64,000 nt of DNA from NCBI GenBank assembly GCA_028819295.1, contig JAPPMA010000013.1:3056-67055 (forward strand), given 5' to 3'. Below are positions 1 through 12,553 of the stretch, one piece after another. The translations under genes were made by a program, and so were the position numbers. The notes beneath the pieces were generated by a model that saw nothing but the letters and a program-made list of their open reading frames with translations, was not told the DNA's origin and did not search any database. The stretch is from a bacterium (GTDB lineage: Bacteria; Actinomycetota; Acidimicrobiia; Acidimicrobiales; Bin134). Each line of letters opens with the position of its first letter. Position 1 is the first letter of the stretch.

Positions 1-145
1 AGGTCAAGCGGCTTCGGGTTCTCCAAATACTTCCGCGAATTGCCGTGGATGGTCCTAACAGAACCGCAGGTCAAGCGGCTTCGGGTTCTCCAAATACTTC
101 CGCGAATTGCCGTGGATGGTCCGAACAGAACCGCAGGTCAAGCGG
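1..145. repeat. 67-bp tandem direct repeat, two full copies plus a partial third
   Basis: Positions 1-67 and 68-134 are the same 67-bp unit, beginning aggtcaagcggcttcgggtt and ending agaaccgc. They differ at one base (cctaac against ccgaac), and a third copy breaks off after 11 bases at 135-145. The array starts at the window edge, so more copies may lie outside. No convincing reading frame runs through it. It may be an intergenic minisatellite or the end of a repeat-containing gene; nothing here decides between these. Confidence 0.85.
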
Positions 146-157
146 CCGAAGCCGCAG

Positions 158-654
158 TCAGAGCTTCAGACGTTTCCGCAGGTCAGCGCCTATCCGCGCA
201 GCCTCTAAGTCGAATATGATCGCCCCGTAGACCCCTTCGACGATGTCATCGAGCGCGGGCTGAGATCGCACAAGATATTGGGCGCCGGTGGGCAGCACCC
301 CCGAGATTCCTGCATCTTGTGAGGCGGGGCTGGGGTCTCCACCGGCGCATCCGATAACGAAAGGGCAGATGCCGATAACCAGGGAAGAAGCAGCACTCTT
401 GACCCTTGCCACCATTGCCCACAAGGCTATCGCCGCATTCACCGGCTCCTTGACGCTTCGGTCAGTCACAAGGGGGGCTTGCTGCGCCAGCGTCCTGGCC
501 CCGATGACGGCCAGATGCGGGGAAGCGAGCACCCTGACGACGTTCCGAGACTCGTCGTTGTCGATGACGGGGAATTGGTCGTACCCCCCGTCTTGCGGAT
601 GGCCTCTGAGAGCGACTTATCCTCGAATGGGCGCTCCGGGCCGGGAACCAACAT
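158..654 (-). pseudogene. CBS-domain-like gene broken by a frameshift in a G6 tract
   Basis: Two overlapping minus-strand frames join into one CBS-like protein. The first, starting at 654, reads RPFEDKSLSEAIRKTGG. The second then reads YDQFPVIDNDESRNVVRVL and continues to the stop at 158. The LSEAI..., QFPVID and VVRVLAS pattern is typical of a CBS (cystathionine beta-synthase) domain. The frames change at the run of six C on the plus strand (584-589); one extra base would restore Lys-Thr-Gly-Gly-Tyr-Asp. The downstream frame also has a stretch around 330-420 resembling a lipobox signal sequence, probably by chance. The C-terminal part (GAQYLVRSQPALDD...) is not recognised. It may be a true pseudogene or a homopolymer sequencing error. 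Confidence 0.45.
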
Positions 655-886
655 CGGTAGCCGGGATCGAAGCTGTGGGCCTTCTCTGGACCCCCGAATC
701 GCCCAGCACGCCCCGTCGGCCCGGCCTCAGGAACCCCCTAAGGCGTCCAAAGCCGCCGCACACATTGCCCACCGATACCGAGCCGCTCCGGAATGCTGTG
801 GGGTCTCTTTGCGCGGTGTCGAAATCTGGCTGGACCGGGCAGTGGAGTTCGGGGTCTGGGTATGATGGACGGGCGCCTTCGACGAT

Positions 887-1291
887 GTGGGGGGAGCTGT
901 GGCCGACAAACAGCTGGAACAACTGCTCGAGGTGATGCCTGAAATCGCCGCAGTGGTGAACAGGTTCTCGTCGCCTGCCGTCCAGGCGGAAGTGTTCTGG
1001 GTCCTAGTCATTGCTGCTGGCGCCGACTTGGACTTGGTCGACTGGAAGCACCCGGCGCTGAAATGGAACGCGTCTGCGAGCTGGCTGCTGAGACCCTGGA
1101 TAGGGCTCGCCGACCTGGTCGAAGAAGAGAGGCTGTCGGAAGCGTACGGGCGTCTGAGGGAAGCCGAGTTGAGGGCCGCGGAGCCACTTTACGCGGAGGA
1201 GGCCCTAGAGGAGGCTCTCGATGCCGAAGGTCTGCGCGAGCTGGCGTCACGGGCAGCGAAGGGCGACCCCGTCAGCCTGCGCAAGTCCTGA
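887..1291 (+). CDS. hypothetical protein, 134 aa
   Basis: I do not recognise this protein. It is acidic and probably mostly helical: a hydrophobic helix in the first half (VFWVLVIAAGADLDLV) is followed by Trp-rich text and a Glu/Ala-rich helix (RLREAELRAAEPLYAEEALEEALDAEGL). The start could be GTG at 887 or GTG at 899; neither has a well-spaced ribosome site. It stops 3 nt before the next open frame, so the two are probably co-transcribed. The composition looks coding, but there is no family assignment. Confidence 0.45.
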   Translation: MGGAVADKQLEQLLEVMPEIAAVVNRFSSPAVQAEVFWVLVIAAGADLDLVDWKHPALKWNASASWLLRPWIGLADLVEEERLSEAYGRLREAELRAAEPLYAEEALEEALDAEGLRELASRAAKGDPVSLRKS

Positions 1292-1294
1292 AGG

Positions 1295-1546
1295 GTGTCC
1301 TGGCGGGTTTCTAGCAAGAACGGGTCTTTCGACGCCTGGTCTGCGGGCAAGCTGCCCGCAGAGACAACACGGATGTTGGAGGACTTAGCGGTGTTCGTCG
1401 AGGTCCCACTGAGTGTGCTGCCTGGTGTGCGGATGCTGGGAAGGGGCCCGATGGACCGATGGGGCGTCGTTGGGACGGCCGTGGTGTTCTTTCGGGTGTA
1501 TGAGCCTCAGGGCCTCATCGATCTGGCTGACATAGTGGACCTATGA
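1295..1546 (+). CDS. hypothetical protein, 83 aa
   Basis: This short unrecognised frame begins at a GTG 3 nt after the stop of the preceding hypothetical gene, suggesting one transcript. The C-terminal two thirds (LAVFVEVPLSVLPGV...VVFFRVYEPQGLIDLADIVDL) has the alternating hydrophobic pattern of a small alpha/beta fold. No signal peptide or catalytic motif is visible. It runs towards an IS3 fragment on the opposite strand, and the two frames overlap at their 3' ends (1507-1546). Confidence 0.35.
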   Translation: MSWRVSSKNGSFDAWSAGKLPAETTRMLEDLAVFVEVPLSVLPGVRMLGRGPMDRWGVVGTAVVFFRVYEPQGLIDLADIVDL

Positions 1547-1680
1547 CAGCGCGGCAACGCACATTGACGCAACCGGGGCCACCCCCGGGCAATGCGGGCC
1601 ACCGGCCGTCCGGTCTCTTTGACGATCCGAACAGCCCCATCGCGGAACTCCCGATCGAAATTTCTTCGCAGTCTGGACAT
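1507..1680 (-). pseudogene. IS3-family transposase OrfA, N-terminal fragment
   Basis: The minus strand from ATG 1680 encodes MSRLRRNFDREFRDGAVRIV followed by KETGRPVARIARG. This is the beginning of an IS3/IS911-type OrfA, the N-terminal HTH region that binds the element's inverted repeats. Similarity is lost after about 33 residues (near 1581), and the frame then runs on in unrelated sequence to a TGA at 1507. A strong ribosome site (AGGAGGAGCT) precedes the ATG. The HTH is incomplete and no OrfB is present, so this is a dead insertion-sequence remnant. Confidence 0.6.
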
Positions 1681-1728
1681 AGCTCCTCCTTATAGAGCAT
1701 GCCTCCACGAAAAGGGGGGAACCTCAGG

Positions 1729-3210
1729 TTACCGGTAGTGGCGCCGGCCTCCGGGGGGTGTGAGGTGGTTTTGGATCTGGGTGTCCAGGCTCATGGCTTG
1801 TTCGCATTGGGTGCGGTGTCTGGCTGGCGGGTCGTGGGTGCAGTAGTGCTCCACGGGTTGTATGTCCAGCACGGCGGCGCTGGCGCCTGCTTTGGCGCAG
1901 GGGTGTATCTGGGGTTCGTGGGGCTGTTTGTGGCTGCCGTAGCGGTTGTCGTTGAAGTCTGGCGGGGCTATGGGGTGGGCGATGATCCGGTCGCCGGTGG
2001 TCATGGGCCCGATGTCGCCGTTCCAAAGCGTCCAGGTGTCCTCGTCGAAGCTGGCTTGGGGATAGGGTAATTTTAGCCATATAGCGAGCGGCTGGCCGTC
2101 GGGACCGGTGTGCTTCCACGAGTCTCCCCACAGCACCGACTGCGGCGCCGAGGCCGCGGTGGGGTACAGGTATACGCACTTCATCTCCAAGTAGTAGTTC
2201 GGCGGCGCGGACTCTATCGACAGAATCCCGACCAACTTGGACAGCTCGAGTTCCATGTCGGGATGGTATGGATGCATGTCGAAAAATGGAGGCGTCATTA
2301 GTTCTGCGGCGGGGGGCGGCTCGCCGGGGCCCCAGCCAGCGGCGGGCGGCTCGACAGCGGGGGCGATGCCCTGTTGGTCCAAGAGCTCCCGCTGGTTCCA
2401 TGGCCTGGTGTCCTCGGCGCAGATGCGCTCTAGCTCTTCACCCTCATGCCATACCCACTTTGTCGGCCTGGTTGTGCAAAGCCACTCCACGGATGTCCAA
2501 AGGCCCTCAGGACTGGCGTACCCGTGGGCGGGGCAGAGGTCCCAGAAGAGATGCAGATCGCTGGGCTCCTTGCCCCCAATCGTTTCGCGTAGCGGGTTTG
2601 AGGCCACAATGACTCGATCGCCGTGGGAGATCGGGATGTCATAGCCCCATAGCGGGTTCCACAGAGTGCGGGTGCCCCCATCCAAGCGAACGTCGGGATA
2701 GATCAGCGACAAGGCCAGGCGCCGCCCCTCCCATTCCGTGATCGAGTCTTCCACGAACTCTTCTGAGAGATTGGTGAGGTAGGCGCAAGGTGGCTCTACG
2801 GACACAGTCGCATGAATCCAGCCATCTGACAGGCCCATCCGTTCGGGGAAGTCCACCCACATGCCCGCTAGCGGCGGCCGCAGCCAACTTTCATTCTCCC
2901 CAAGGCCGCCGTCATGACCCTCCGACCCCGCGGGCGGCAGTACCGGGCCTTCGCTTGGTTCGGGCTCGGCTGTCGCCGACGCGGTGTGCGACGGTTGCTC
3001 TGCAGTTGTTTTCCCCCCAGATGAGCAACCCGCAGCCGCCAATGCCAGACACACAGCTACAACTCCGCTGCGCACCGCCCTCCCACTGCGCAGCGCCGAG
3101 CGTTGTTGCGCAGGATTCCTACCGCTCGGGTGGGATTTCCGCAGCGCTTCGTGCCACTTGTTGCGGTGTTGATCTCGCCAGGTCGCGTGGGGGTCTTTTG
3201 GAGCGGTCAT
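1729..3210 (-). CDS. lipoprotein with an internally duplicated domain, coupled to a secreted protease
   Basis: This 493-aa product starts at ATG 3210, whose ATG overlaps the TGA of the protease gene (ATGA), so the two are translationally coupled. A long basic N-terminus leads to a hydrophobic stretch and a lipobox (CLALAAAGCSSGG near residue 60), indicating a membrane-anchored lipoprotein; a low-complexity T/E/P linker follows. The mature part seems to contain two copies of one domain. Each carries a TLWN... block, a GDR(V/I)I(V/A) block, and a Cys-rich end (CPAHG...SVEWLC in the first, HPCAKAG...VEHYCTHD in the second). I do not recognise the family. The operon suggests it is a partner, inhibitor or substrate-binding companion of the protease. 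Confidence 0.75.
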   Translation of the reverse strand: MTAPKDPHATWRDQHRNKWHEALRKSHPSGRNPAQQRSALRSGRAVRSGVVAVCLALAAAGCSSGGKTTAEQPSHTASATAEPEPSEGPVLPPAGSEGHDGGLGENESWLRPPLAGMWVDFPERMGLSDGWIHATVSVEPPCAYLTNLSEEFVEDSITEWEGRRLALSLIYPDVRLDGGTRTLWNPLWGYDIPISHGDRVIVASNPLRETIGGKEPSDLHLFWDLCPAHGYASPEGLWTSVEWLCTTRPTKWVWHEGEELERICAEDTRPWNQRELLDQQGIAPAVEPPAAGWGPGEPPPAAELMTPPFFDMHPYHPDMELELSKLVGILSIESAPPNYYLEMKCVYLYPTAASAPQSVLWGDSWKHTGPDGQPLAIWLKLPYPQASFDEDTWTLWNGDIGPMTTGDRIIAHPIAPPDFNDNRYGSHKQPHEPQIHPCAKAGASAAVLDIQPVEHYCTHDPPARHRTQCEQAMSLDTQIQNHLTPPGGRRHYR

Positions 3211-4490
3211 GGGGCGCTCAGGGTGACAGGCTCGGTGAGCACCTGCGCGCGTAGGAAGGCCTCGACCTCTTTGATTGCCGAGAACGTCACCCACTTGTTT
3301 CCAGATGTGCAATCGTACCTGTTGGTAGCGCCCGCCGTTATTCCGTATGCTTTTCCGCCCCGATAGAACGGTCCACCACTGTCGCCTCCACATCCCTTCA
3401 GCCGTTGCCCGTGAACTCTCACGAATACGTGTTCGCAGGGCGTGTCTACACCGTTAACGTCTCGGCAGGGTCTACCGCTCCAGTCCAGCTGATGGTCGAT
3501 GCTGATCACTTCGCCGCAGGAAGTCTTGGTTTTCTTGCCGGTATGGCACACGTAGTCGCCTTGCATTTCGGCGCGTTGCTCGGTGCCGGTGACGTCGCAA
3601 GAGGGGGTGGGGTAGCTGGCAGGGTCGCGACACAGAAAATCGTCCAGGATGTAGTGGGATCCGCTATCTGGGGCGGGGATTCGGTGGAACTGGGCGTCGG
3701 CGGTGGGGCTCAGCCAGCCATAGGCGAACGGCAACGACACACCGTTCATGGTTACCGCTGCGGTGTCTGTTGGGAGGTCACCGCCGCAGTGGCCTGCTGT
3801 GATGATGCCATAGTCGGAGCCGCCGGGGCGGGACTTCCGGGCAGTGAATCCCGAAGTGTATCCGGTTATTGCTTCGCCGCCTTGGAAGTTTGCTGCTGGT
3901 GCGATGCCGCGGCCGTCGGCGATGGTGAAGGCCACCTCGATGTGGCTTTGGAGCATTTCTGCGATAACAACTGCGCCCTGCTCGAAGCTCAGTTCAGACA
4001 CAGAGCCCAGCGGGCCGATCTCAGGAGCCAGACTTGGGTCTATGCCGACGCGGACGGCGTTGCCCGCCATGTCGGTTTCCAAGAACGTGACCACCTCGGT
4101 CACACCTGCTGCTATCCCGGCGCCCTCGAGATCGCCCGGCGGGCCGGGAGCGGCCTGCCCCTCTTCTCCGGTGTTGCCTAGCGCGCCGATGCCAGCAGCG
4201 CTCTGAGCCGCGAAGAGCTGTGCGGCGAGGTTGCGCTGTGCGGCTTGGAGTTCGGTGTAGCTGTGTTGGGCGCCGGTGCGGATCTCCACGTCGTTGTGGG
4301 CGTCGGCTGCGGCTGCCGCCTCAGCGCTGGCGGGTTCGTCGCCGGTGAGCAGCACCCAGCCCACAAAGCTGCCGCGGTGGTCGATACCCCAGCCCGCTGT
4401 CCGCATCGTCTCAATGCTGCGGATCGTCGCCAGAGTTTCCTGGATAGCGTCGATTTGCATGAGGCGGCTGTGGGCTTCCGTTTGCGTCAC
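3207..4490 (-). CDS. trypsin-like (S1) serine protease, prodomain plus catalytic domain
   Basis: The catalytic domain is complete: the His box is ITAGHCGG, the Asp is in ADAQFHR, and the Ser box is GCGGDSGGPF. Several Cys pairs suit an extracellular enzyme. It resembles the alpha-lytic-protease-type (S1E) group, with an N-terminal prodomain of about 200 residues. The frame is open from a GTG at 4490, but a signal peptide in the same frame lies just upstream, separated by a TAG at 4509-4511 and six sense codons. As read, the protein has no export signal unless the stop is read through or is an artefact. It overlaps the downstream lipoprotein start by 4 nt. Confidence 0.85.
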   Translation of the reverse strand: MTQTEAHSRLMQIDAIQETLATIRSIETMRTAGWGIDHRGSFVGWVLLTGDEPASAEAAAAADAHNDVEIRTGAQHSYTELQAAQRNLAAQLFAAQSAAGIGALGNTGEEGQAAPGPPGDLEGAGIAAGVTEVVTFLETDMAGNAVRVGIDPSLAPEIGPLGSVSELSFEQGAVVIAEMLQSHIEVAFTIADGRGIAPAANFQGGEAITGYTSGFTARKSRPGGSDYGIITAGHCGGDLPTDTAAVTMNGVSLPFAYGWLSPTADAQFHRIPAPDSGSHYILDDFLCRDPASYPTPSCDVTGTEQRAEMQGDYVCHTGKKTKTSCGEVISIDHQLDWSGRPCRDVNGVDTPCEHVFVRVHGQRLKGCGGDSGGPFYRGGKAYGITAGATNRYDCTSGNKWVTFSAIKEVEAFLRAQVLTEPVTLSAP

Positions 4491-4508
4491 CGAGTATTCC
4501 AGAGCGTA

Positions 4509-4667
4509 CTACGCCACTGCCAAGTCCACCGGCTGCGCGGCCGAGTTCGGTTCTACCTCCGTAGACTCTTCTCTGTCAGCCGCATGTACCGTGCTTGCAG
4601 CTGTCGCCCCAAAGACGAACAGTCCGATTGCGCAGAGCAGAATTGCCTGCCTCTTCTTCCACTTCAT
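4509..4667 (-). CDS. signal peptide segment of the S1 protease, ended by an in-frame TAG
   Basis: From ATG 4667 the minus strand encodes a classical Sec signal peptide: basic MKWKKRQ, a hydrophobic core, then a VHAADRE cleavage region. A short spacer follows, ending VDLAVA before a TAG (4509-4511). The start is fixed by a good ribosome site (GGAGGTG). The next codons, still in the same frame, lead straight into the protease prodomain, so this is the 5' end of the protease gene rather than an independent gene. The uninterrupted precursor would be about 486 residues. Confidence 0.7.
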   Translation of the reverse strand: MKWKKRQAILLCAIGLFVFGATAASTVHAADREESTEVEPNSAAQPVDLAVA

Positions 4668-4671
4668 CTGG

Positions 4672-4678
4672 CACCTCC
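4672..4678 (-). promoter_or_regulatory. ribosome binding site fixing the protease precursor start
   Basis: GGAGGTG on the minus strand sits 4 nt before ATG 4667. It selects the signal-peptide start, not the GTG at 4490 that opens the longer downstream frame. No comparable site precedes 4490. Confidence 0.7.
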
Positions 4679-5154
4679 AGTTCTGGGCTTCAGCCATTGA
4701 ATTGATTCTGGCTTTGAGGATATGTCGTTTGGTTAGCTTCATATGTCTTGAGATAAACGTAGGACGGGTGTGACCGGACCCCGATGCATGGAGCATGGAG
4801 CGTGGTGGATTCGGTCATAATGTAACTTGGCCTTTCGTAGCGGCTAATGGAGGCATTTAGCTGCCTTTACCCTTAACGACAAACAACGGCCCGCTTTGCG
4901 GCACGAATTTCGAAAATTTTTTTGTCATCCGGCGATTGAGGAACATGCCAGCGTCGACGCTTGCTATGGATCTAGCCGCGTCCAGCGGGCAATTGCTGAA
5001 TCGCGTGCCCTGGTACCAACAGCAAGAAGAACGTGGTTCTACTCCTCTAGAGGGAATTATGGAGGCAAGGAATTCGCGGGGGTGTTTGTTGTAGTCAGCG
5101 CTCGGTCTTGCCCACGTTTTTCTTCACCGGTGGGGCTGGTTGCCGCTGGCAGGC
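4679..5154. other. intergenic region upstream of the protease operon
   Basis: About 475 bp lie between the protease start and the stop of the RecQ-UvrD gene. The sequence is locally AT-rich around 4905-4930 (gaatttcgaaaatttttttg). I find no credible gene, strong terminator or clear promoter consensus. It presumably carries the promoter of the minus-strand protease operon. Confidence 0.5.
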
Positions 5155-8100
5155 TCAGGATGGCTCGAAGATGAGTTCGGGCACGACGACTTCCCATGTG
5201 TCGCATTTGAGTTGCTCTTGGTATTCGGGCTCTGAGTGTTGGCGGCCCCAGGTTGCGATGGCCAGGACGCTTGCGTGGGTGCAGACCATCCCCTCGGGGG
5301 GCTCGAAACTTCGGGCCAGCCTGCCTACTGCTACGTCAGATTGATCGAGCAGATCCCACCGGTCGGATCGCTGTTGAACTCGTAGTGGGTCGTTTGGGGA
5401 CAGGGCTGCGATGGCGGCATGCACACGACTGTGGGACGGCTGTCGACCGGCGAAGCTCAGATAGACGTCCTTTAGGTTGAGTTGTCGATAGCGCCGACGT
5501 AGTTCTGGTGCGGCCGGCGGGAGCTCGAAAGGCTCTCGCCATAGGGCTGTTGGACTGCCCCGCAGTTCCTTCACAAGAGGGTTTGGTTTCTGAAGTTGTC
5601 CGAGGGCGAGGGTGTGGCGGGCGCGGGTCATGGATACGTAGTACAGACGGCGCGGCGCGTCGGGATCCTCCTCTTGTCCCATGCGGCCCCAGCCGCCGTC
5701 GAGCACGATCACATGGTCGAACTCCAGGCCCTTGGCGCGGTGGGCGGTGGAGAGCAGTAGCCCGTGTTGGCGTTTGCGCGCGTCTCGGCCCCACTCGGCC
5801 AGCCATTCGATTAGCGAGTCCACCGGAATGTCGGCCTCTCCCGCCTCGTCCTCGTGGGCCTCTATTGCCTGTTGCAGGAGTTCCGTCCAGGGGGTTTGGG
5901 TTTGGCTGGTGTGCCACTGGCGCAGGTCGGCGTTTCGGATCAGTCGGGTGTCTCGGCTGCGGAGCCATTTGAGCAGGGATTGGGTTTCGCGTAGGTGCCA
6001 GATGCTGGGGAGGTCTTCGTTCGCCATTTGCACTGGTATGCCCTCGAGTTCGCAGATGCTGCGAACCGGCTCTAGGTATTTCCACTCTCTGGCGAGGACG
6101 GCGCAGTTTGACCAGTCCCAGTCGGAGGCGCGATCTTGCATTCGTTGAAGCTCGGCCATTGCTGTTTGCGCCTGGGTTATCGCATTTTGTCCGACTGGCA
6201 GGATTTGGACCTTCCCGCGGCCGACGGGGTCCCGCCCAGCCCACGAGCCGCCCGCGGCGTCTTTGGCGCGCTTCTTGTTGATGCGGATTTCGTGGTCAAT
6301 CTTCATCCGGTCTGTTGCTGGTTTGATGACCGCGTTTGAGGCCTCGATGATGTGGCGGGTTGACCGGTAGTTGTCGGTGAGGAATGCAGGTCGGGCCTGG
6401 TAGTCCTGTTCGAATCTGCGTATGTACTTCACCGAGGATCCCTTGAAGGCGTAGATGTTCTGGTCGTCGTCGCCTACCGCGAACAGGGTGAGCTTGGAGT
6501 CCTCGTCTGATTGAGTCCGCCCCGCAAGCGCGGAGATGAGGTCGTACTCCTCTTGGGCGACGTCTTGGTATTCGTCCACCAGGATCCACCGGAACCCCGC
6601 CAAGAGCCGGGTCCGGGTCTCCTCGGCCTCTTCTGGTTCCAGTCCGTCGCCGCGCAGCAATGCGGCCGCCTGTTTGAGGATTTCCTGGAATTGTTCGCTT
6701 TCTGGCCGGTCGGCGCGCTCTGCGAAGCTGGCGCCGACGAGGCGCATCGCCATCGCGTGGCAGGTGAGCACCAGCACCCTTCGCGCGTCGTCGCCTACGA
6801 GTTGGGCCAGTCGGCGGCGGATCTCGACTGCGGCATGTCGGTTGTAGGCGAGGGCGAGGATGCCACGGGGGTCTTCGCGCTTGACTCGTATCAGGTAGGC
6901 AATGCGGTGAACCAGCACCTTGGTCTTGCCCGAACCGGGCCCGGCCAACACCAGCATGTTGGCGCTCTCGCGGTTGTCAGCCACGAGGTGGCGCTGGGAG
7001 GGGTTCTTGAGGCTCTCCACGATGTCGCGCCAGGACTCCGGCGTGGTCTGCCGGCCAAGCTCCGTGCCGCGATCAGGCAGCCAGCGTTCTAGGAACTCGG
7101 TTTCTTCCAGGGTGAAGTAGTCGATGGTCAAATGCAGGGCCTCAGCCATGTTGGCGAGCCCTCGCTGTGCGTACTCGGCCATGATGTGGATTTGGCGGAC
7201 GGTCTCGTCGTAGTGGATCTGCAAGGACTCGAAGTCCGATTGCTTGTAGCCGCGCCGTTCGGGCGACAGGTGGATGGTCATTGCCGGGCGGAACACGGTG
7301 AGGCCCTTGTTGAGCCTGATGACCTCTTGTTCGTGCAGCCACACCAGAGAGCGGTCCACGAGCCTTCGGAAGTCCCTTATGTCTTGTGAGGCGAGGCTCA
7401 GGTCTCCTTCCACGGCTTTGGTCAGCTCACCCAAAGTGGTCTCCGCCAAGACGTCGGTGCCGCGTTTGCCCTCTGGGACGCATGACAACAGGTGATCGAG
7501 CAGGCGGGCAGCGCCGGCTCGCCGGCGCTGGGCGATCCTTGCGATTGAATGCCACTCGCGCTTCAGCGTTACCCGGACGCTGTCAGCATCGTGTTTTCTC
7601 ACTGTGATGCTGCCGCCGCCAATGCCCTCGCCGCGGCCGTCTCCGGCGATCCCCTGGAGAAGACGGACTATGTACTCGGGCCGGACATGGTCGTGGCCAG
7701 CGTCTTTGATGCGCTGGCTGGCTATGCGCAGGTTCAATGGCGCTTCGTCGCCGATTCCCATGTCCGGGGCCATCTCCTGCATGAGGTTCAACAGCTCCTC
7801 TTCCGCCCCCGCCGCCTCAGCGAGCCTCCGTTTCGAGCTGTTGGCCACGCCGACGTGGACAAAGGCAGTCAGCGCGGTGTCATTGACGGCGATCCCGTAT
7901 CGCTCCAAGTCGTAGAGCGCCCCCCTCACTTGGTCGGAGCTGAGGCCGGCGGTTTCCATGAGCAAGTCGGTGGAGATGCCCTCGACAGGGTCGGCATCGA
8001 TCAGCAGCCGCACGATGGCCAACAGCCGGTCGCGAACGGCGTCGCCGATCGCTCCAACCTCGAGCTTCTCCTTCGCCTCCTCAACCGAGCTCACCCGCAA

Positions 8101-10299
8101 CGACGAAGGGAAGACCCGGACGCGGTTCTCCTCGCGGCTGAGCAACTCTGACTCCTCAAGCCAGGCCAGTGCCGTCCGCCCCCGCGTGTCGTCGGTGGCA
8201 GAATCCCGTCTGAAGTCGTTGTCCTCGTCCTTGACCAGGATCTCCCCGATGGTGGCTTCGACCTCATCGCTCTTTTTGCGCCTGCTCAACCGGCGCAGGG
8301 CCTTCAGAACCCCGTGAATCTCGCGCCGGGTGAGCCGGGACCGAGCCGACATGCCGAATTGCCGCTCCACGTCGTCTTTTGTGTAGAGCAGCACGCAGTG
8401 TGCTTGTTGCTGGTCCCTTCCCGCCCGGCCCGCTTCTTGCAGGTAGTTCTCCAGCGAAGATGGAATGTCGGCATGTATCACCAGCCGCACATCGGGCTTG
8501 TCGATGCCCATTCCGAATGCGTTGGTGGCCGCAATCGCCCTCAGCTCACCGTCGATGAAGCTGCGCTGGATGGTCTTCTTCTCTTCTGGCTGCAACCCGG
8601 CGTGGAAGCGATCGGCGGAAAATCCGTGTTCCCTGAGGAAGTTCGCCACCTCCTCGGTCCGCCGTCGAGTGGCGCAGTACACGATCGCGCCGTCATCTCG
8701 CTCCGGGGGCAGGTGCTCGGCCAAGAACGTGTGGATGTCGTGGTCCTTCATGGCGGTTGTTGTCTCCGCCACCACAAACTCGAGATTGGTGCGCCGGCTG
8801 CCACCGTCGAACACCTGCATCTCGACGCCGAGTCTTTCGGCGAAGTACTCGACTATCTCCTCTTTGACCCCTGGCTTGGCCGTCGCCGTCAAACACAGCA
8901 CCGGGGGGACAGCACCGCCTTCGGCCTGTTCGCAGATGTAGCGCCCCACATAGCGATAGTCGGGGCGGAAGTCGTGGCCCCACTTCGAAAGGCAGTGCGC
9001 CTCGTCCAGCACCCAGGCACCGATCTCGCGCTGGTCCAAAGTGCGCCGAAACGAAACGCTGCGAAGCTGCTCCGGAGAGATCAACACGATGGCAGCATCT
9101 CCGAGCCTCAGTCTCTCCAGCGCCTCGGTGCGCTCAGGCATCGACAACAAGCTGTTGATGGTGATACAGGAAGTGATGCCGCTGGCCTCAAGCCCTGTGA
9201 CCTGATCGGCCATCAAGGCCACCAGCGGCGAGATGACCACGGTCACCGCCCCGGTCTTCTCATATCGCGACAGCGCCGGTATCTGGTAGCACAGCGACTT
9301 GCCCGTGCCCGTCGGCAAGATCCCCAAAACGTGATCGCCTCCCATCGCCGCCTCGACGATGGCCTGCTGCAACGGACGCCCGTCTTCACCGGCCGGCTCC
9401 GGTCTGAAATCGTCGAAGCCGAACAAGCGCTTCAGCTCTCGGCGAGCATTGTGGCGCTCCTGGCACCAAGGGCAGCCATGGTCGCCGCACCGGCGGTCAC
9501 GCAGGCGCCGCACCAGCTTTCCGGCATCGGGAAACTGGTGCCGCACCCAGGGCGGCATGACCGAATTGCCCCCCGACACCCACAACCACGCCAACGCGTA
9601 GGCAAGCGACCAGCCATGCTCGCCAGCGGAATCGACGGCCTGGCGGGCATGAGTACGACAGCACACACCGCCAACACGAGAGAGAATCGCCTCGCGGGCC
9701 TCGCCGTCAGACGGTCTCGGCGAACCTCGCACACTCCGGAAGGCCAAATCAAAACCAGAGCCGTGCTGAACCCCCGTCAGCCAGTGCCAGGCAACAAGCA
9801 AGTCTGAGGGCGCCTCCACCAGACTCTTCTGCTGGTCGGCGAAGACCTCCAAGGCGATCCGGGCGTCTTGCTCCGGGTCGTTCCTGCGCCCGGTGATCAG
9901 CTGGCCCTCCTGATAGTGCTTGACGAGATGGTGATACGGGTTCCGGGGAAAGGCCAGAGGATTCAGCCACAGCGTGTCCACCACCGGCAACTGAAGCAAC
10001 CGCAAATCAGGATTGACCGCCTGCAAATGGCGCATATCGAACTCAATGAAATTGTGACCCACAACGAAATCCGAGCCATCGGCAAGAGCATCTAAGTCGG
10101 CCAATGCCTGATGAAAGCGACGACCCCTCGACGGGTAGGCGAAAGACTCGCCGGTGTCGAAGCGCACTCCAGCGAAGGAGTGAATGCGCCCCGTCTTTGG
10201 CGATACTTCAAGGTCAACCGAAACGCAGCGAGACAATCCCGCCAATAGACGCTGGGCTCCTATGTCTACTTCTGGAGCTGCTTCCGGCACGGTGCGCAT
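5155..10299 (-). CDS. giant exonuclease-RecQ-UvrD fusion helicase (1714 aa)
   Basis: Three enzyme modules are fused. Residues about 20-160 resemble a DEDD 3'-5' exonuclease, with acidic positions in SVDLEVS, GHNFIEFD and PEQDARIA. A Cys-rich CGDHGCPWC knot follows at about 271-279. Then comes a full RecQ helicase: LPTGTGKS Walker A at about 328-335, VLDEAHCLSKWGHDFRPDY, and AATNAFGMGIDKPDV with QEAGRAGRD. The C-terminal third is a UvrD/Rep helicase: AGPGSGKT, LVDEYQDV, VGDDDQNIY, STAHRAKGLEFDHV, YVSMTRAR. Exonuclease plus RecQ recalls WRN; adding UvrD gives one polypeptide with two 3'-5' motor cores. All key motifs look intact. It lies on the island and follows an 84-aa frame by 27 nt. A DNA repair or phage-defence role is inferred. 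Confidence 0.9.
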   Translation of the reverse strand: MRTVPEAAPEVDIGAQRLLAGLSRCVSVDLEVSPKTGRIHSFAGVRFDTGESFAYPSRGRRFHQALADLDALADGSDFVVGHNFIEFDMRHLQAVNPDLRLLQLPVVDTLWLNPLAFPRNPYHHLVKHYQEGQLITGRRNDPEQDARIALEVFADQQKSLVEAPSDLLVAWHWLTGVQHGSGFDLAFRSVRGSPRPSDGEAREAILSRVGGVCCRTHARQAVDSAGEHGWSLAYALAWLWVSGGNSVMPPWVRHQFPDAGKLVRRLRDRRCGDHGCPWCQERHNARRELKRLFGFDDFRPEPAGEDGRPLQQAIVEAAMGGDHVLGILPTGTGKSLCYQIPALSRYEKTGAVTVVISPLVALMADQVTGLEASGITSCITINSLLSMPERTEALERLRLGDAAIVLISPEQLRSVSFRRTLDQREIGAWVLDEAHCLSKWGHDFRPDYRYVGRYICEQAEGGAVPPVLCLTATAKPGVKEEIVEYFAERLGVEMQVFDGGSRRTNLEFVVAETTTAMKDHDIHTFLAEHLPPERDDGAIVYCATRRRTEEVANFLREHGFSADRFHAGLQPEEKKTIQRSFIDGELRAIAATNAFGMGIDKPDVRLVIHADIPSSLENYLQEAGRAGRDQQQAHCVLLYTKDDVERQFGMSARSRLTRREIHGVLKALRRLSRRKKSDEVEATIGEILVKDEDNDFRRDSATDDTRGRTALAWLEESELLSREENRVRVFPSSLRVSSVEEAKEKLEVGAIGDAVRDRLLAIVRLLIDADPVEGISTDLLMETAGLSSDQVRGALYDLERYGIAVNDTALTAFVHVGVANSSKRRLAEAAGAEEELLNLMQEMAPDMGIGDEAPLNLRIASQRIKDAGHDHVRPEYIVRLLQGIAGDGRGEGIGGGSITVRKHDADSVRVTLKREWHSIARIAQRRRAGAARLLDHLLSCVPEGKRGTDVLAETTLGELTKAVEGDLSLASQDIRDFRRLVDRSLVWLHEQEVIRLNKGLTVFRPAMTIHLSPERRGYKQSDFESLQIHYDETVRQIHIMAEYAQRGLANMAEALHLTIDYFTLEETEFLERWLPDRGTELGRQTTPESWRDIVESLKNPSQRHLVADNRESANMLVLAGPGSGKTKVLVHRIAYLIRVKREDPRGILALAYNRHAAVEIRRRLAQLVGDDARRVLVLTCHAMAMRLVGASFAERADRPESEQFQEILKQAAALLRGDGLEPEEAEETRTRLLAGFRWILVDEYQDVAQEEYDLISALAGRTQSDEDSKLTLFAVGDDDQNIYAFKGSSVKYIRRFEQDYQARPAFLTDNYRSTRHIIEASNAVIKPATDRMKIDHEIRINKKRAKDAAGGSWAGRDPVGRGKVQILPVGQNAITQAQTAMAELQRMQDRASDWDWSNCAVLAREWKYLEPVRSICELEGIPVQMANEDLPSIWHLRETQSLLKWLRSRDTRLIRNADLRQWHTSQTQTPWTELLQQAIEAHEDEAGEADIPVDSLIEWLAEWGRDARKRQHGLLLSTAHRAKGLEFDHVIVLDGGWGRMGQEEDPDAPRRLYYVSMTRARHTLALGQLQKPNPLVKELRGSPTALWREPFELPPAAPELRRRYRQLNLKDVYLSFAGRQPSHSRVHAAIAALSPNDPLRVQQRSDRWDLLDQSDVAVGRLARSFEPPEGMVCTHASVLAIATWGRQHSEPEYQEQLKCDTWEVVVPELIFEPS

Positions 10300-10326
10300 G
10301 CTAGATGCTCTGCCAAAAAGGGGAAG

Positions 10327-10581
10327 TCAGAGTCGACGGCCAGGAGACCGCCACCCTCTATTGGCTGGGCCTATTTGGGGTTTGGTCACATCGAGGACTA
10401 TGACGGATATCTTGCTGGCCTGCTCGGGAGTCAGATCGCCTTCCAGTAACTCTCTCAACTCGTCAGGGGTAGCGGGATGATTGCCGTCTGACCTTCGCCT
10501 GATCTTGTCGCCGCCCGTCCACAGGACGGGGTAGATGCCGCGACCGGAGGTTGCGGCGTAGACCGCACACCTGATTCGCAC
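10327..10581 (-). CDS. small protein (84 aa) upstream of the RecQ-UvrD fusion, possibly truncated
   Basis: The minus frame from GTG 10581 reads RIRCAVYAATSGRG..., then GNHPATPDELRELLEGDLTP and EQASKISVIVLDVTKPQIGP. It looks like a real globular domain, with amphipathic helices around DELRELLEG and a hydrophobic strand SVIVLDV. The frame stays open upstream, but that sequence lies opposite an IS3 orfA (from 10617), so the original N-terminus may have been lost to the insertion. It ends 27 nt before the helicase start on the same strand, indicating an operon. I cannot assign a family. Confidence 0.5.
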   Translation of the reverse strand: MRIRCAVYAATSGRGIYPVLWTGGDKIRRRSDGNHPATPDELRELLEGDLTPEQASKISVIVLDVTKPQIGPANRGWRSPGRRL

Positions 10582-10616
10582 TGGGTTTCGCGCTGGCTTC
10601 AAGGATTGGAGCGAGT

Positions 10617-11030
10617 ATGGGATCCGTGGGTTCAGGGGCGGGGCCGGTGGCGGCGTCTCGGCGGTATTCGGCTGGGCAGAAGCGGCATGCGGTTCGGATG
10701 GTGTTCGCTTTGCGCGAGGAGTTGGGCGGTTCGGCTGGGACGGTCGCCAGGGTGGCCTGTCAGTTGGGCTGCGGGGTGGGGTCGTTGCGCCGCTGGGCGG
10801 CTCAGGCCGAGGTCGGCGCCGGCGCCGGGGCGGGCGTGACCGCCTCGGGGAGCGCGGTGCTGAGGAGGCTGCGCCAAAAGAGCCGGGAGCTTCGACGGGC
10901 GAACGGGATATTGCGGCGGGCCGCGGTTTTTTTCGGGGCGGAGCCCGGCCGCCGGCAGCCAGTTCACCAGCATCCGCTGAAATCTGCGGCCATTTTCTGC
11001 CGGCAAGACATTTTGGAATGGCGCCTATGA
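10617..11030 (+). mobile_element. IS3-family OrfA, truncated; no OrfB
   Basis: The frame from ATG 10617 encodes RRYSAGQKRHAVRMVFALRE, then a GTVARVACQLGCGVGSLRRW HTH and a leucine-zipper-like segment ending RANGILRRAAVFFGAE. This is the usual layout of an IS3-group OrfA (transposase DNA-binding subunit). Similarity stops just after FFGAEPGRRQ (about residue 112), and the rest of the frame is unrelated. The DDE subunit OrfB is absent, so the element is immobile. I could not define terminal inverted repeats. It lies between the 84-aa gene and the AlpA regulator. Confidence 0.7.
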
Positions 11031-11163
11031 GCGCGGCGGCCGAGCATCGGTGATGCACAGGGCCACTTTCTCCTTGAGCTGCCTGCGCGCGTGCAGGCGG
11101 CATTCATTGCCGCATTGCCCATACCGAAATCCCTTGAGGGAAGGCGGAGGGTCGAAGAAATGC

Positions 11164-11385
11164 TCAGGAGCTTGCCAGATCACTGGTGGCGCGGGGCCTG
11201 GTGGCGAGCCATTCGTCAATCTCTGACGCATACCAACGCACAGCGCGTCTGCCGACCCGGATCGGTTCGGGGAACAGCCCATCGCGCATGTACCTGTAGA
11301 TCGAGCTCGTGGATAGTCGACAACGCGATTCGACCTGTCTACGGGTCAATAGGATGGCGGCTGGGTCTCTAAAACTGCTGGTCAT
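11164..11385 (-). CDS. AlpA-family phage/island regulator (excisionase-like HTH)
   Basis: This 73-aa protein has a MerR-like winged HTH typical of AlpA/Xis factors: LLTRRQVESRCRLSTSSIYR, then YMRDGLFPEPIRVGRRAVRWY and SEIDEWLATR. Such proteins activate or direct excision of P4-like integrative elements and are usually neighbours of the integrase. Here a truncated integrase lies about 240 bp away on the same strand, next to ssrA, supporting an island origin. The HTH looks complete. Confidence 0.8.
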   Translation of the reverse strand: MTSSFRDPAAILLTRRQVESRCRLSTSSIYRYMRDGLFPEPIRVGRRAVRWYASEIDEWLATRPRATSDLASS

Positions 11386-11621
11386 ACCCGTATCGTGCCC
11401 AGATAAATCGGGAAAGTGGCACGAGTCTCTTTGAACTTTTTGAAGTCGAATTGTCAGGATTGCCCGATCGTTCCTCGACGTTCTCTTGCTCGTTCCAGGC
11501 AGAGGCTCTGTTGAGTCGCGACCGAGCCAACTATGCGGGCCCTTCCTCTAGGTCTCCCACTTTGCGGAGGTTGTAGCCGCGGTTGCGGGGGTCCCGTTAC
11601 CCGAGGGGTGCAGCGTTCGCT

Positions 11622-12125
11622 TCAGCCGTTACGCTGCTCCACGAATTCGGCCCATTGTGCCATCAGGTTTCGACGCCGGTCTAGAAGGCTGCTTCTGATG
11701 TATGCCTGCTCAACGTCGTTCCCCAGGGTGTGGGCCAAGGAGGCTTCTGCGACCGCCCAGGGCGTGTCCGTTTGCTCTAGAGCCCAAGTCCTGAAGCTTG
11801 AGCGGAAGCCGTGAACAGTAGCCCGTTCCGCTAGACCGGTGTCGCGAAGCACCTTCGTCAGTATCATGTCCGAGAGCGGACTGCCAGGCTTGAGCGGAGA
11901 TGGGAAAACCAGTCCGGAGCCATCGGCGAGCCGTTTAGCTCGAACGAGGACCCTCAATGCTGCGTCGGTTAGCGGGACGCGGTGTTCCAAGCCGCTCTTC
12001 ATGCGTGATTCGGGTAAACGCCACTCTTTCTCATCGAGGTCAATCTCGGCCCAAGTTGCGCCTCGGGCCTCGCCGCTTCTCGCCGCTGTCAGGATCAAGA
12101 ATCGGAAGCAGTACTTCACGGCCAA
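11622..12125 (-). pseudogene. P4-type tyrosine recombinase, N-terminally truncated at ssrA
   Basis: Only the catalytic half is present. It has the Arg box LTAARSGEARGATW, the HGFRSSFR box, ASLAHTLGN, and the Tyr region EQAYIRSSLLDRRRNLMAQW, so all catalytic positions can be seen. Coding similarity continues upstream of the TTG at 12125 (FPKALTVIEESQ...) and stops where the frame enters the 3' end of ssrA at about 12169. The arm-binding and core-binding domains are gone. Such integrases insert islands at the 3' end of tRNA or tmRNA genes; this one appears to have been cut by a recombination or deletion at the attachment site. It is unlikely to be active. Confidence 0.8.
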
Positions 12126-12168
12126 TGAGGCCTGAGATTCCTCGATGACGGTCAGTGCCTTGGGGAAG

Positions 12169-12553
12169 TGGAGCTGGGGGGAATCGAACCCCCGTCCGCT
12201 GGGCGGTGTCTGACTGTGATACGACCATTCCCGGTTTGCGGCGTCGATGGCAGCGGCACCGCCGGGTCGGACGGCCCCGCTAGGGGGCCTGCCACCGGGA
12301 CTGTTCCCCGGAGTCAGCGGTCTTTCCCGCCGTCAGTGGTCTGTCCCTACCGTCTCCAACGCTTCTGTTGCCGGGCTGCGATGGACTGGCCCCGCGTGCC
12401 GTTGCCGGTCGCGATGACTCTCTACACCTGACGGATCAGGCTGCGAGAGGGACACTGTCAGTGTCGGTTATTTGTTTGCCCCGTTTTGCGAGTCTGAGCA
12501 ACTCGGGTCGCACAGCGCAGCCCCCGGTCCCAACGTCGAAACCGATCAGCCCC
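12169..12553 (-). ncRNA. ssrA: transfer-messenger RNA (tmRNA)
   Basis: The 5' end GGGGCTGATCGGTTTCGAC (from 12553) pairs over 7 bp, with one G-U, with the 3' end CAGCTCC (to 12170); a discriminator A at 12169 follows and CCA is not encoded. The T-arm GGGGGTTCGATTCCCCC lies just before the 3' end. The mRNA-like frame starts at GCA (12489) and reads AKRGKQITDTDSVPLAA followed by TGA (12436-12438). It encodes the degradation tag added to stalled nascent chains by trans-translation with SmpB, whose gene is about 2 kb away. Length is about 385 nt. An integrase remnant abuts the 3' end, a classic island insertion point. Confidence 0.95.

Follow-up and report, generated by a model that had tools for sequence, protein, structure and literature searches.

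A P4-type integrase gene that is reduced to its catalytic half, and whose reading frame meets ssrA at the 3′ end of that gene, raises the question of how the N-terminal half was lost and what became of the island to which the integrase belongs. The locus lies in a stretch of 64,000 nucleotides (the window), which is part of contig C84 of a draft genome (G000; 108 contigs, 95.14% complete). In our view, with a probability of about 0.9, a P4-type island was inserted at ssrA and a 757-bp deletion between two copies of the sequence TCCCCAAG then beheaded the integrase; the comparison behind this reading rests on mostly draft genomes, with an orthologous intact integrase in one relative, G008. The features next to ssrA are as follows, in window coordinates.

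12168–12553, minus strand: ssrA (tmRNA), called by ARAGORN, tag DTDSVPLAA
12159–12166, minus strand: 8-bp junction TCCCCAAG, placed by the G008 alignment, the sole copy left of a direct repeat
11622–12167, minus strand: catalytic half of a P4-type tyrosine integrase (PF00589, profile positions 12–168 of 172, E = 2.8e-16)
11164–11385, minus strand: alpA, an AlpA-like regulator/excisionase with an intact frame (PF05930, E = 4.1e-16)
10617–11030, plus strand: transposase-like fragment (HTH_Tnp_1; PF01527, weak at E = 3.9e-6), a probable insertion-sequence remnant

The 3′ end of ssrA is the integration target of the island. The gene itself was left whole by integration, as indicated by ARAGORN, by an Rfam RF00023 match at 12166–12553 (76.5 bits), by the alignment with G008 and by relatives in which the site is empty. 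A frame at 11622–12332 on the minus strand starts within ssrA and reads out into the integrase. The Pfam matches bear out the original description of a P4-type integrase that retains its catalytic motifs with an AlpA factor alongside; the catalytic letters, which we take to be R (TAARSGE), HxxR (HGFR), H (LAH) and Y (QAY), are readable in the fragment. The arm-binding and middle domains are missing and the catalytic part alone is kept next to ssrA. The best matches to the fragment that bear a name come from Acidimicrobiia/Acidimicrobiales bins, with Chloroflexi bins among the next.

A search of 148 genomes, that of the window among them, found relatives of the fragment in 26, and outside the genome of the window an identity of about 90% was reached only in G008, which belongs to the same genus. 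At the same site G008 has ssrA, then CTTCCCCAAG, then a full integrase gene that starts 142 nt past the ARAGORN end of ssrA and is followed by the same alpA gene as in the window. The G008 integrase has 386 residues with the arm-binding, middle and catalytic domains all present; its catalytic half is 90% identical to the window fragment, and its PF13356 and PF22022 domains are both lost from the window protein. The alignment of the two loci runs through ssrA and CTTCCCCAAG, jumps 757 bp and resumes at the second TCCCCAAG inside the integrase gene, after which the block containing the integrase and alpA continues for 1189 bp without gaps at 93.9% identity. The two BLAST blocks share exactly 8 bp of the window, and TCCCCAAG occurs twice in G008, 757 bp apart. 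Among 200,000 random deletions in the same region, a fraction of 2.25e-4 had end homology of at least 8 bp. Because homology of this length is so rare in random deletions, a 757-bp deletion between short direct repeats is the simplest account of the beheading.

The loss of the N-terminal domains at the 3′ end of ssrA is thus traced to this deletion, and the claim that the cut is exact needs to be divided. The frame does abut ssrA, but homology to the intact integrase starts at TCCCCAAG, the first base of which (12166) is the second base beyond the ARAGORN end of ssrA, and the beheading need not be an effect of the attachment site itself. The abutment looks exact because a copy of TCCCCAAG happens to begin there. 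Selection for keeping ssrA may also have mattered, and the deletion probably arose without RecA, by slippage or end joining. The course of events would then have been the insertion of a P4-type integrative island with int and alpA at the 3′ end of an ssrA gene that stayed whole, and later a deletion that took the integrase leader with about the first 205 codons; the island is now part of a composite that fills the roughly 20.0 kb from ssrA to an HhH-GPD gene. The disabling of an ssrA island is thereby described at the level of single bases, with the likely ancestral state seen in a relative.

The coding sequence of the fragment fits this reading. Compared with G008, pN/pS is 0.56 for the integrase fragment (0.60 on a slightly shorter stretch) and 0.12 for alpA. 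Among the 24 pairs listed, other integrase C-terminal halves with pS below 0.45 give 0.10–0.35, in a comparison in which pairs have members in common and some genes have disrupted N-terminal frames; for pairs above 0.45, those listed that include the window give 0.31–0.39. The raised ratio is compatible with a pseudogene, as a signal of relaxed selection that depends on few changes; the contrast in selection between integrase and alpA is not significant (Fisher p = 0.083). Further P4-type integrase relatives with stops or missing parts are found on contigs C45, C39, C50 and C62 of the same genome.

Three other explanations of the truncated gene were weighed. The one that survives best, although we regard it as unlikely, is that the island's own or an incoming recombinase made the deletion at a pseudo-attachment site within the integrase gene. 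Tyrosine recombinases use short identical overlaps, the 8-bp repeat matches such an overlap in size and one of its copies is next to the attachment site. However, the ssrA elements of three relatives (G014, G015 and G019, described below) are bounded by a duplicated 19-bp stretch, and TCCCCAAG falls just beyond it, so that crossover probably does not usually take place there. It is less probable still that the gap is an artefact, with 757 bp skipped by the assembler or with the allele of a minor strain represented. The 108 contigs of the draft leave room for such an error, but the 55-bp overlap of the contig ends suggests a word size of 55, at which an 8-bp repeat would not be expected to collapse, and the raised pN/pS of the fragment also argues against it.

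The SSV-type suicide integrases of archaea have reading frames that run up to the attachment gene. An arrangement of this type, with attP inside the integrase gene and, across the island, the N-terminal half beside a second ssrA end, would suit a frame that meets ssrA nearly exactly at its 3′ end, but we consider it very improbable given that the orthologous G008 integrase is whole while at ssrA, that the N-terminal relatives in the same genome are at best 62, 61 and 59% identical (on C45, C76 and C39, respectively) and that a second ssrA end was not found on contig C101 or in C84:1–15500. None of these three N-terminal matches is accepted as the missing piece, each being adjoined by a catalytic half (C45 and C76) or part of one (C39), and in a search of the draft genome the N-terminal half of the window integrase was not found above 62% identity. 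The window gene resembles the SSV type in ending at ssrA and differs in that the rest has been deleted rather than relocated to the other end. Precise termination of a frame at a tRNA or tmRNA gene therefore need not imply an attP inside the integrase gene.

With the deletion between TCCCCAAG copies as the preferred reading, the extent of the island may be considered. Four of the 22 genomes of the genus (G002, G003, G013 and G018) have an empty site, with a gap of 27–85 bp from ssrA to the HhH-GPD DNA-repair gene; the ssrA match in G018 is partial, below the family cut-off and near a contig start. In nine others (G005, G007, G011, G012, G014, G015, G016, G019 and G021) the gap is 1.3 to 21.1 kb on one contig, and in eight more either gene was not found or the two are on different contigs. 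These empty sites, together with the occurrence of alpA and a whole integrase at this place in G008, uphold the proposal of a genomic island that was inserted at ssrA and later disabled. In the genome of the window the HhH-GPD gene is on another contig (C101:5341–6006). C101 and C84 overlap by 55 bp, the end of the former being identical to the start of the latter, and the join is crossed by a block of 3337 bp that is collinear with G008; from the coordinates, the gap across both contigs is 20,007 bp. The join also falls within a helicase gene (C84:313–1968, plus strand, outside the window) whose PADLOC matches are DrmD-like and SNF2-type, and relatives of it sit at ssrA in G004 and G017.

The 21-nt ssrA end, at up to three mismatches, has a single match in the 64-kb window, which is ssrA itself (mean in shuffles, 0.01); its reported absence from positions 1–12168 thus holds for the whole window. 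Since a second ssrA end was not found on C101 or C84:1–15500 even when as many as 6 of 26 positions were allowed to differ, the far attachment site was apparently lost or eroded, and with the flanking gene about 20.0 kb away on C101 this agrees with the suggestion that the other boundary is outside the window or lost. A scan of viral contigs for the exact ssrA end with its flank gave no matches. The island is most likely trapped and unable to leave, because the far ssrA repeat is missing in addition to the beheading of the integrase. In G008 a sequence that agrees with the ssrA end at 20 of 21 positions precedes the left end of the three-gene element described below and is a candidate for the far attachment site of the integrase island of that genome; no overlap was found between its island contigs, C17 and C53.

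Another copy of the ssrA end does exist in the genome, on contig C6 with one mismatch, but it was rejected as the far attachment site. This copy terminates a tRNA-like element, the same downstream sequence is present in at least G005 and the HhH-GPD flank is on C101 and not on C6. This dispersed element of about 160 nt (C6:37946–38106; loci L002 and L220, relatives L221–L230) consists of a terminator-like hairpin and, after it, a tRNA-like RNA about 75 nt long whose ends resemble those of tmRNA and which includes a conserved GA(C/T)TTGACA. The C6 copy is not called by ARAGORN, and three copies score 38.6–40 bits against the tmRNA family, for which the cut-off is 47. Long matches to the element are found in 11 of the 22 genus genomes, with several per genome in some.

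Prophages of a comparable kind are known. PMC5148205 describes CP4So, a P4-like prophage at ssrA with intA and alpA in which AlpA is the excisionase, and CP4-57 appears as the same kind of ssrA prophage with intA and alpA in PMC10107115. The window shares with them the insertion at ssrA, the P4-type integrase and AlpA, but its integrase lacks the N-terminal domains, the far attachment site was not found and the cargo is different; they reside in E. coli and Shewanella, whereas the host of the window is probably an acidimicrobial actinobacterium. In the CIME/accretion model, as outlined in PMC5704250, an element decays and others accrete in tandem at the same gene; the window island, which has no detectable far attachment site, falls outside the definition of a CIME. 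As an instance of mobile-DNA decay the island is ordinary, if documented unusually well, and a new kind of system is not needed to explain it.

The original prediction treated the locus as one genomic island. An island at ssrA is confirmed, but the sequence comparisons show it to be made up of two or more elements rather than a single unit. The other parts of the window that bear on this are listed below.

5155–10299, minus strand: c9, a protein of 1714 residues with DEAD/RecQ-like and UvrD helicase parts (PF00270, PF00271, PF00580 and PF13361)
10378–10554, minus strand: c17 remnant, the C-terminal 59 residues encoded by gene 2 of a three-gene element
3206–4632 and 1727–2738: cargo common to the window and G008 contig C53 (blastn, 80% and 88%, respectively)

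The first of the shared cargo segments contains a gene for a 427-residue protein (3207–4490, minus strand) that has no Pfam match; with its TAGHC and GDSGGP motifs it looks, we presume, like a trypsin-type protease.

Whole copies of the three-gene element are present at ssrA in three relatives, as follows.

G014, L175 1507–12392: whole three-gene element
G015, L185 896–11947: whole three-gene element
G019, L188 712–11587: whole three-gene element

Each spans 10.85–11.03 kb between copies of the 19-bp sequence CGATTCCCCCCAGCTCCAC and encodes a DUF4143/AAA ATPase (PDC-S01 in PADLOC), a large P-loop protein and a DpdF/RecQ–UvrD fusion. Compared with G014, the first and third proteins are 83–91% identical in G015 and G019, and the second is 57–59% identical. 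The second has no Pfam match, and its P-loop, GDPGSGKT, was read by eye. Window positions 5138–10559 have 84–86% DNA identity to the G014 and G015 elements and correspond to the right half of the element: c9, the best PADLOC matches of which are DpdF and GajB, is the third gene, and the c17 remnant, which is 78% identical to residues 1328–1386 of the G014 protein, is what the window keeps of the second.

Pfam identified no recombinase family in genes 1 and 2 of G014, in gene 3 of the window or in any of the three genes of G015 and G019, and none is among the best 25 PADLOC matches of each G014 protein. These three elements therefore each have two att-like repeats without a recognised recombinase. 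The motif TGTGGGAA occurs in three copies in the G008 integrase leader (both strands counted) and also at two other places on G008 C53; the right end of the element has two copies in G014 and one in each of G015 and G019. Tentatively, and with considerable doubt, we suggest that c9 and the c17 remnant could be a decayed integrase-less ssrA element moved in trans by a P4-type ssrA integrase, and thus a candidate defence satellite. If so, the beheaded integrase would strand both the integrase island and the three-gene element.

For Dehalococcoides, PMC3146451 describes tandem ssrA islands, in which decay wipes out the traces of the far end; 15 of these islands lack an integration module and are considered possible cis-mobilizable elements. 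Their cargo is reductive dehalogenases, whereas that of the window is a helicase and defence-like genes. The integration modules of the two presumably differ as well. Within the genus, ssrA is a hotspot for helicase and defence-like cargo, and the integrase-less three-gene elements are the part of this locus that most deserves attention. The pair consisting of the DUF4143 ATPase and the large P-loop protein is also found about 0.4–0.5 kb past a tRNA-Pro gene in G013 (L209) and G007 (L210).
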